Shown in pieces: positions 100 through 56,123 of a stretch of 64,000 nt of DNA. The DNA lies in NCBI GenBank assembly GCA_001829185.1, contig MIAR01000037.1, positions 1 through 64,000 on the forward strand. The letters run 5' to 3'. Made by a program: the position numbers and the translations under genes. How positions within the stretch are numbered: position 1 is the first letter of the stretch; every line of letters starts with the position of its first letter. The notes under the pieces are model-generated. The model searched no databases, was not told the origin of the DNA, and saw only the letters and a list, made by a program, of their open reading frames with translations. The DNA is from Spirochaetes bacterium GWB1_60_80. Its GTDB lineage: Bacteria > Spirochaetota > Spirochaetia > Treponematales > UBA12059.

Positions 100-588
100 G
101 CGCAGCGACCGGCCCAAGGTCAGTTGGCTATCTACCTGGCTACTGAACAGGTCGACGATGCGGTTGATGAAGCCACCCGGTTCGGACTTGCTCACCGTGG
201 CCGTCGTCAGATTGGCGGTAATGGCGCGGGCTTCGGCGGTGGGCGTGCAGCGCACTTCAAAGCGGTTCAGGTCGGTTGGTGACGGATTCTCGCCGGAAAC
301 GCCTCCTTTGACGCCCAGGTAGGCGGTGCAGATGTCCAGCACGTTGACGGCGCTGCCGGTGGCTAAGAGGCGCAAGATCTCGGTCTTCAAGAGGCCAGCG
401 CAGTACTGTATGGTCAGCGGCCGGACGCTGGTCTCATGCTCGCCGATGTGGGCGATGATGTTAGCCAGGTTGATGGTCTGGCTGTTGCGCTGGACGCGGC
501 CATAATATTCATTGCCGACTTCGCTCAGGCTATTGCTGTGCAGCACGACATTGAGCTTGCGCGCCTCGGTTGTAAACGTAGTGTTCAT
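85..588 (-). CDS. HU-like DNA-binding protein with truncated C-terminal domain
   Basis: The start at 588 is chosen because GGAG lies five bases before ATGAACACTACG. The product is about 167 residues. The first ~110 residues (TTFTTEARKLNVV, then YYGRVQRNSQTINLANI, then GLLKTEILRLLATG) resemble the HU/IHF-like domain of Bacteroidetes and spirochaete proteins that carry a C-terminal DUF4469-type Ig fold. The last residues (TLGRSLRLTG) look like the first strand of that Ig fold, after which the frame hits a stop inside a repeat terminus at 82-99. I infer an originally longer protein cut by an insertion. The DNA-binding role is by family resemblance only. No partner gene is visible. Confidence 0.55.
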   Translation of the reverse strand: MNTTFTTEARKLNVVLHSNSLSEVGNEYYGRVQRNSQTINLANIIAHIGEHETSVRPLTIQYCAGLLKTEILRLLATGSAVNVLDICTAYLGVKGGVSGENPSPTDLNRFEVRCTPTAEARAITANLTTATVSKSEPGGFINRIVDLFSSQVDSQLTLGRSLRLTGC

Positions 589-611
589 GATAACTCCATG
601 GTATGGCAATG

Positions 612-630
612 GGCTTTCCCAGGGAAGGCC
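612..630. repeat. 19-bp palindrome upstream of the HU-like gene
   Basis: GGCTTTCCCAGGGAAGGCC reads as an inverted repeat with one mismatch around a central A. It lies 24 bases upstream of the HU-like start codon, in its probable 5' untranslated region or promoter, so it could be an operator or an RNA hairpin. No function can be assigned. Confidence 0.4.
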
Positions 631-808
631 TAGAGGGTAATCTCAAATTCCTGTAAATCATCGCAGAACGGTCTAAGACCATTCCTGTATTGGAAGCTGC
701 GGCAATTTGCCAGTAGCAATTTACCGGTGGCAGGCTGCCAGTGGCAGGCTACGTTTGATCATGGACCGAAGCTTCATCCCAGTAACCCCATGCTTCATTG
801 TCTTATAA

Positions 809-852
809 GAGTCTTGTCAGAGTCTTGTCAGAGTCTTGTCAGAGTCTTCTCA
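809..852. repeat. tandem repeat, 11-bp unit x 4
   Basis: Three perfect copies of GAGTCTTGTCA (809-841) are followed by a fourth with one change (842-852). The unit is not a multiple of three and no gene covers it. Confidence 0.85.
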
Positions 853-963
853 TAGTGCACCTCTCTTTCCTTGTTCCTTGGTTATGGTCATCCGGCTATC
901 ATGTATTACTATGAATTTCGTTATATAAAACACATAATTAGGCTTAGAACTGCGGATATTAAA

Positions 964-1089
964 TAGTTTAAGGTGGGTATCCATTCGGCTCAGGTCAACA
1001 CAAGATGTAGTGGTATGTTATAAAAATGGCCATCAAAAACCACAATTTCTAGTGGGTGCCTGAGCCAAGTGGATACCCACCTAGTTTAA
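964..1089. mobile_element. MITE-like element, 110 bp, with 8-bp target duplication
   Basis: The element spans 972-1081. Its ends are 23-bp inverted repeats (972-994 and 1059-1081) that match at 21 of 23 positions and begin GGTGGGTATCCA. It is flanked by a perfect direct repeat TAGTTTAA (964-971 and 1082-1089), as expected for an 8-bp target site duplication. The interior is AT-rich, encodes nothing and extends the hairpin imperfectly. This is the structure of a non-autonomous miniature inverted-repeat transposable element mobilised by a transposase elsewhere. The parent family cannot be named from the ends alone. Confidence 0.8.
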
Positions 1090-1171
1090 TAATCGCTTGT
1101 GTATACGATCTACTGAAATTCTTAGTAAGTCAGCCACCCGAATCAGCTACGACCCCGCATCCGCTTACTGA

Positions 1172-1187
1172 AATAACAATTGTTATT
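1172..1187. repeat. 16-bp perfect palindrome
   Basis: AATAACAATTGTTATT is perfectly self-complementary and lies in the most AT-rich part of the intergenic island. Related half-sites (TAACAA, GTAACA) follow within 50 bases. It could be a regulator site; no adjacent gene makes this clear. Confidence 0.45.
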
Positions 1188-1347
1188 AAATTTTGGTAAC
1201 AAATAGTAACTTGTAACAATTATTATTTATTGCTTTATTTAATGCGCACAGGTACTGGAGGAGGCTGGCGATAGTATAATGGAAGGCAAGCTGACTAGAC
1301 GAATCAGCCCGCATCGAACTATAAATAGTGCGCGGATAGCATTATTA

Positions 1348-1484
1348 ATGGTCCATCCATAACGCTATCAATGGTCCTTGGATAGCCTTATCAATGGTCC
1401 TTGGATAGCCTTATCAATGGTCCTTGGATAGCCTTATCAATGGTCCTTGGATAGCCTTATCAATGTACTTGGATAGCCCTGTCA
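1348..1484. repeat. tandem repeat, 23-bp unit
   Basis: Four identical 23-bp units (ATGGTCCTTGGATAGCCTTA plus TCA) lie at 1371-1393, 1394-1416, 1417-1439 and 1440-1462. A diverged unit precedes them (1348-1370) and a diverged 22-base unit follows (1463-1484). There are no spacers, so this is not a CRISPR array. A 23-base unit changes frame at each copy, so it does not encode a repeat protein. Identity of the central units suggests recent expansion. Confidence 0.9.
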
Positions 1485-31052: not shown

Positions 31053-31190
31053 TTACCGGGATGCTGAAAAAGCCGGTAGCTTTTCCAACATCCTTGACAA
31101 TTTCTCGTATAGCTTACGCTATACTGCGTAATTGTATTGGCTTTTGAAGTGTTGAAAAGCCACATTCGCGTTTTTCAACACCTTATTTGC
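31053..31190. repeat. 138-bp dispersed repeat, copy A
   Basis: This intergenic segment aligns without gaps to the reverse complement of 49424-49561, with roughly 85 percent identity (about 20 differences, mostly transitions). The ends are imperfect inverted repeats containing TGTTGAAAAA/TTTTTCAACA, and the interior contains two further palindromes, ATAGCTTACGCTAT and GGCTTTTGAAGTGTTGAAAAGCC-like (31139-31161). It encodes nothing. It lies between the acyltransferase gene and the GH13 gene. The form is that of a MITE or a large structured intergenic repeat. Confidence 0.85.
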
Positions 31191-49423: not shown

Positions 49424-49561
49424 CTAACAGGGTGTTGAAAAACGCGGATGCGGCTTTTCAACACTTCAAAAGCCGGTACAATTACGCAGCATAGCGCAAG
49501 CTATGCGAGGAATTGTTAAGGTTGTTGAGAAAGCAACCGGCTTTTTCAACAACCTGCTAAC
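49424..49561. repeat. 138-bp dispersed repeat, copy B
   Basis: Copy B is inverted relative to copy A (31053-31190) and aligns end to end with no gap. Its ends, CTAACAGGGTGTTGAAAAA (49424-49442) and the inverted form of TTAGCAGGTTGTTGAAAAA (49542-49560), match each other at 16 of 19 positions. The interior holds the palindrome GCATAGCGCAAGCTATGC. It fills almost the whole gap between two convergent genes (15 and 12 bases from their stops), so its transcript could fold from either side and act as a terminator. Confidence 0.85.
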
Positions 49562-55418: not shown

Positions 55419-56123
55419 TCACTCCAGCTCGGCGAAACGGTAGCCGACCCCGATCTCGGTCTGGATCATCGGCGCGGCCGCGTTGGCGCTCTGGATCTTG
55501 CGCCGCAGGCCGCTGACAAAGACGCGCAGGTTACCGTACTGCTCCGGATTGGCCTGACCCCAGACCTGACCCTGCAGATAACTGTGGGTCAGGACCTTAC
55601 CTGGCTGGCGCAAGAAGACGAGCAGTATCCGGTACTCCAGGGGCGTCAGGTGGACGTCCTCTGCGTCAACCTGGACACGTCGCTTGTCGACATCGACGCT
55701 GAGCGGTCCGTAGCTGAAATGCTGGGCGTCGGCCGCGGCCAAGGCCTCGCCCGGAGCGGCAGCCCGACGCAGCAGGGCTCGCATTCGGGCCAGCAACTCG
55801 CCGGTCCGGAAGGGTTTGACCAGATAGTCGTCGGCGCCGGCATCCAGGGCCTCGATCTGGTCGCGCTCCTGGCCCCTGGCCGAGACGACGATAATCGGGG
55901 TGGGCGACCAACCGCGCAAGGCGCGGATAAACTCCACGCCGTCGAGGTCTGGTAGGCCCAAATCCAGCAAAATGAGCTCCGGGGCGTGCGAGGCGGCTAA
56001 TGACAAGCCCTCGTGCCCGGAGGCCGTCGTCACCAAGCGATAGTCCTGAGTGGACAGAATGGTCTTCAGGTAATTTACGATCGGCTTCTCGTCCTCAATA
56101 ATCAGGATCAGCGGATTAGGCAT
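55419..56123 (-). CDS. kdpE: OmpR-family response regulator KdpE-like
   Basis: The start at 56123 (MPNPLILIIEDEKPIVNYL) overlaps the kinase gene's end by eight bases and follows GGGAGG. The 234-residue product has a receiver (LILLDLGLPDLDGVEFI) and a winged helix (LTPLEYRILLVFLRQPGKVL, THSYLQGQVWG, GNLRVFVSGLRRKIQ), closest to KdpE. KdpE activates the potassium-transport operon kdpFABC in other bacteria; here no kdpFABC is present in the window and the Trk genes lie just upstream. Confidence 0.9.
   Translation of the reverse strand: MPNPLILIIEDEKPIVNYLKTILSTQDYRLVTTASGHEGLSLAASHAPELILLDLGLPDLDGVEFIRALRGWSPTPIIVVSARGQERDQIEALDAGADDYLVKPFRTGELLARMRALLRRAAAPGEALAAADAQHFSYGPLSVDVDKRRVQVDAEDVHLTPLEYRILLVFLRQPGKVLTHSYLQGQVWGQANPEQYGNLRVFVSGLRRKIQSANAAAPMIQTEIGVGYRFAELE

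Follow-up and report, generated by a model that had tools for sequence, protein, structure and literature searches.

Near the left end of the window (the whole 64-kb stretch of DNA that was analysed), we read the sequence directly and observed a 110-bp segment at positions 972-1081, bracketed on both sides by perfect 8-bp repeats, TAGTTTAA. Its two ends (972-994 and 1059-1081) match each other in inverted orientation at 21 of 23 positions, and the segment occupies an intergenic position. The repeats, the inverted ends and the low coding capacity had been proposed by a sequence-only reading of the same DNA and were confirmed; each of the three ORFs (20 aa or longer) that overlap the segment crosses its borders, so that the segment by itself encodes none. 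The features of the locus are the following, where IS stands for insertion sequence and the labels L and G denote loci and genomes described below.

964-971, no strand: target-site duplication, left copy TAGTTTAA, in the same register as the 8-bp duplications that flank IS1595-type ISs of G639 and of the host
972-1081, no strand: 110-bp element, very probably non-autonomous and of IS1595 type (MITE-like), without an ORF of its own; based on sequence, fold, ORF check and related ends
972-994, plus strand: left terminal inverted repeat GGTGGGTATCCATTCGGCTCAGG; it matches the L088 end at 20/23 and the L084 end at 18/23
995-1016, plus strand: left subterminal segment, resembling IS1595-type IS ends at up to 16/22 (shuffle p uncorrected; 34 comparisons, 17 per end)
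1037-1058, minus strand: right subterminal segment, up to 16/22 alike to IS ends (shuffle p likewise uncorrected)
1059-1081, minus strand: right terminal inverted repeat GGTGGGTATCCACTTGGCTCAGG; it matches at 20/23 the L084 end, which equals the end of the intact G639 IS
1082-1089, no strand: target-site duplication, right copy TAGTTTAA, from reading of the sequence

The window was scanned for exact 8-bp direct repeats around 60-200 bp with 23-bp ends alike at 15/23 or more, and the element was the sole structure of its kind. The same scan of 20 block-shuffled windows returned no structure, and the probability that a given pair of 8-bp flanks matches by chance is about 2e-5 at the local base composition. 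A coincidental palindrome between coincidental 8-bp repeats, a reading that the single copy in the host genome would suit, is therefore refuted and retains practically no probability: chance scans give none, and independent ISs, presented below, match the ends at 19-20/23 and carry their duplications in the same place. The window also contains an inverted pair at 31053-31182 and 49431-49560 (87% alike) that belongs to a family of palindromes whose ends, of GTTGTTGAAAAA type, do not resemble IS1595 ends. This pair is probably the 138-bp repeat to which the sequence-only reading had declared the element unrelated, a statement that was upheld by their different ends.

Over its entire 110 bp the element is weakly palindromic (arms of 51 nt, 75%), and its predicted fold is a single long hairpin of -59.9 kcal/mol (z -9.6 relative to 200 shuffles). 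Such a strong fold, the intergenic position and the single copy would also suit a conserved hairpin with a regulatory or RNA role (terminator, REP-like or attenuator) and a coincidental flanking repeat. However, there is no terminator-like site at the element, its sole Rfam match, to a microRNA model, reaches 28 bits where the gathering score is 120, and it was not found at the same locus in 22 other genomes of the family. Moreover, its ends are common to transposase-bearing ISs whose 8-bp register agrees with that of the element. A role as an RNA or terminator hairpin is thus strongly disfavoured, and we regard it as very improbable.

The core of the approximately 23-bp ends is GTATCCAYTYnnCTCAGG. 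A scan of GTDB contigs for this core yielded 21 loci, six of which (L081, L083, L085, L092, L099 and L100) were judged by eye to be chance matches and the other 15 true ends. Both ends were found, in facing orientation and no more than about 1 kb apart, at five of the 21 loci. Three of these hold short elements (L089, which is the short element of genome G003, as well as L091 and L096), and the remaining two hold ISs of approximately 1.03 kb, L082 in an Acidobacteria MAG with a 310-aa transposase and L086 in a Nitrospiraceae MAG with a 315-aa transposase. The L082 transposase matches PF12762 (DDE_Tnp_IS1595) at 112 bits (cut-off 27), PF12760 (Zn_ribbon_IS1595) at 54.7 bits (cut-off 25.4) and NCBIfam NF033547 at 207 bits (cut-off 75); those of L086 and G639 score similarly. 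The target duplication of the L082 IS is off by one base.

A search of the host's class (E<=0.02) gave 13 rows in 11 of 394 genomes: two correspond to the query itself, two to a pair in G639, one to G406, whose contig is equal to L084 over its first 180 bases, and eight to short matches. In G639 the pair delimits an intact IS of 1021 bp that encodes a 310-aa IS1595 transposase. Both of its 23-bp ends are identical (ACTGGGTATCCACTTGACTCAGG) and agree letter for letter with the L084 end; they are alike to the right end of the window element at 20/23 positions and to its left end at 18/23. This IS is flanked by an exact 8-bp target-site duplication, AAATGTAA, located five bases outside the GTATCC core, the same register as that of TAGTTTAA.

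Taken over the IS ends of L082, L086, L084 and G639, the right end of the element is alike at 19-20/23, so that similar ends and an 8-bp duplication in the same register are what it has in common with these IS1595 family ISs, whereas they carry a transposase gene within about 1.02 kb and the element, at 110 bp, carries none. The family is described in passages of PMC8101967 as comprising seven groups, among them ISPna2, ISSod11, IS1595 and ISNwi, and as usually generating 8-bp duplications. According to the same passages, the IS1016 group has no zinc ribbon; since the matching transposases carry one by their profile matches, this argues against the IS1016 group. The earlier proposal of a non-autonomous element with a target duplication is thereby supported, and the kind of parent is identified as an IS of the IS1595 family, a maker of 8-bp duplications.

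The sequence-only reading had also considered the element a member of a repeat family, and a genome-wide search with its end was suggested to find other copies and a parent. The host assembly (3.6 Mb in 59 contigs, 96% complete) is broken at IS copies. A second copy was not found in it, either by a DNA search (E<=10) or with the end pattern allowing up to 3 mismatches, nor was an IS with GTATCC ends. Hence, with one copy in the assembled genome, the element does not qualify in the host as a repetitive family, as a strict MITE definition would have it, and in place of an autonomous partner with identical ends the assembly contains only the related resident IS, with ends 16-18/23 alike. Plasmid records gave no copy with distant blastn, and IMG/VR no match to the exact end pattern. 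The absence of any other copy, together with the presence of the whole segment in distant relatives, had been named as evidence that would speak against a mobile element; there is indeed no other host copy, but none of the relatives searched has the segment either.

At the level of the order, GTATCCAYTYNNCTCAGG with at most one mismatch was matched in 42 of 390 genomes, and exact matches were limited to the facing pairs in the host and in G003. The one-mismatch single matches are read as chance because a control with the reversed pattern also produced scattered matches. Within the family (23 genomes including the host), a diverged relative was detected in one of the 22 other genomes, G003, on contig MIBM01000177.1 of Spirochaetes bacterium RIFOXYC1_FULL_54_7. 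It is 154 bp long and shows the common end core on both sides; no target duplication was found around it.

The resident IS1595-type IS of the host has ends CCTGGGTATGCA[GC]TTGACT[CA]AGG and is represented by nine half-copies at contig edges and by a 495-bp internally deleted copy. Three of its five left ends pair with one of six right ends by an identical 8-bp flank (C3/C22, TTATTTTT; start of C24/C26, TTATATAA; C32/C28, TTTTATTA), when about 0.2 such pairs would be expected by chance in AT-rich flanks. These duplications are perfect, AT-rich and in the register seen in the window element. The deleted copy lies on C24 at 55440-55934, with a joined frame of 129 aa, and its flanks are unmatched (AAAAGAAA and TTACATAA). 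The C22 edge reads contiguously over the same deletion junction, so that the derivative is present at two places or more in the host. With PF12762, the C24 fragment is the single match above the cut-off in the host assembly; a second match, at the end of C31, falls below it. A preference of the transposase for hairpin targets was considered and rejected, given that shuffled sequences fold as well as the five rejoined sites.

These data raise the question of whether the resident CCTGGGTATGCA-ended IS cross-mobilised the element, which would then parasitise an active IS1595-type IS of its own host. The resident IS is present in multiple copies, has AT-rich 8-bp duplications in the right register and a deleted derivative at two or more places, and its transposase is the only one of IS1595 type above the family cut-off in the host assembly. 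On the other hand, its ends are alike to those of the element at only 16-18/23 positions (5-7 of 23 differ), including the outer two bases (CC versus GG) and the GTATSC core, and at the left end its subterminal bases are unlike those of the element (3/22). We consider this origin possible, although unlikely. Somewhat less likely still is the broader idea that the resident GTATGC-ended IS moves diverged GTATCC-ended elements and that the miniature element outlived its parent by switching transposase; if true, one transposase would support two end types.

The explanation that we favor, and that is very probably correct judging from the ends and the duplications, is that an IS1595 family transposase, acting in trans, moved the window element, itself a non-autonomous element of IS1595 type. 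The element possesses what would characterize such a derivative: ends in common with ISs that carry an IS1595 transposase, an 8-bp target-site duplication and no transposase of its own. According to this model, a DDE transposase of the family, with a zinc ribbon and an ISXO2-like catalytic domain, would have been supplied in trans, would have recognised the approximately 23-bp ends and then either cut the element out or copied it; joining to AT-rich target DNA cut with an 8-bp stagger would have left TAGTTTAA on both sides. Both the movement in trans and the identity of the acting transposase are inferred from sequence. The source of this protein may have been an IS that was lost, one that is unassembled or the related resident IS. 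Because the ends and subterminal bases of the element are nearer to those of GTATCC-ended ISs than to those of the resident IS, a lost or unassembled GTATCC-ended IS, with GGTGGGTATCC-type ends, seems a likelier source than the resident GTATGC-ended IS.

As to the age of the insertion, which had been called fairly recent, the perfect duplication fits an event that may be not very old and is the sole basis for this estimate; an exact empty site was not found in the same-genus genome G001, in other genomes of the family or in a host paralog on C23. G001 gave no DNA match to the region, and in the other family genomes the matches are confined to short stretches or to portions of the neighbouring ORF. 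The paralog of the intergenic region, at the edge of C23, is 80% alike over 477-717, 82% over 837-896 and 61% over 1133-1449, and it has no counterpart at all of 897-1132. With about 100 bp of flank missing along with the element, it does not represent an exact empty site. Since 897-1132 is wholly missing from the paralogous region, this interval is possibly an older nested insertion.

Several other observations concern the surrounding sequence. A weaker outer palindrome encloses the element at 905-1129, with arms at 906-937 and 1097-1128 (72%) and inner arms at 952-963 and 1085-1096; 3 of 300 shuffles fold as well as 906-1128, and no other copy was found in the host genome. The paralog at the C23 end (L079) covers window positions 477-1449 and part of the ORF at 85-609, is 61-82% alike in blocks and includes the 23-bp tandem repeats, which are of the TATCAATGGTCCTTGGATAGCCT type and occupy 1320-1480 of the window in five registers. 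In addition, a 40-bp stretch at 60-99, near the start of its own contig, is repeated at 95-100% at the starts of C6, C53 and C55 and also inside or near the end of C51; it is possibly the end of another mobile element.

Elements of this kind are already in print. Table 4 of PMC3852290 includes an IS1595-derived MITE of Haloquadratum walsbyi, linked to ISHwa6, of 165 bp and 7 copies (IR 25, DR 8). By description rather than by sequence, it is like the window element in its short length, lack of transposase, long inverted ends and 8-bp direct repeats, but it is archaeal, longer and multi-copy, whereas the window element is bacterial, 110 bp long and single. Our partial survey of the open-access literature found no bacterial IS1595 MITE. 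Other close counterparts are the short elements of G003 and of Acidobacteriaceae bog_218, which, as the window element, have the GTATCCA..(n)..CTCAGG core on both sides and no room for a transposase; their interiors and lengths differ from those of the window element, G003 has no duplication, and the bog_218 elements show a 9-bp direct repeat instead of an 8-bp one. In bog_218, an element of about 100 bp with IS1595-type ends occurs twice (L091, 880-970; L096, 642-732), and both copies are flanked by ACCGTCAGT or part of it. From its ends, this element appears to be a second non-autonomous form of IS1595 type.

Given that IS1595-derived MITEs have been described, the window element is real but ordinary, and its impact past annotation is small. 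Nevertheless, an orphan palindrome of a little-studied spirochaete is now tied to a named transposase family, and IS1595-type ends with short non-autonomous forms extend to spirochaetes and acidobacteria, beyond the archaeon in print.
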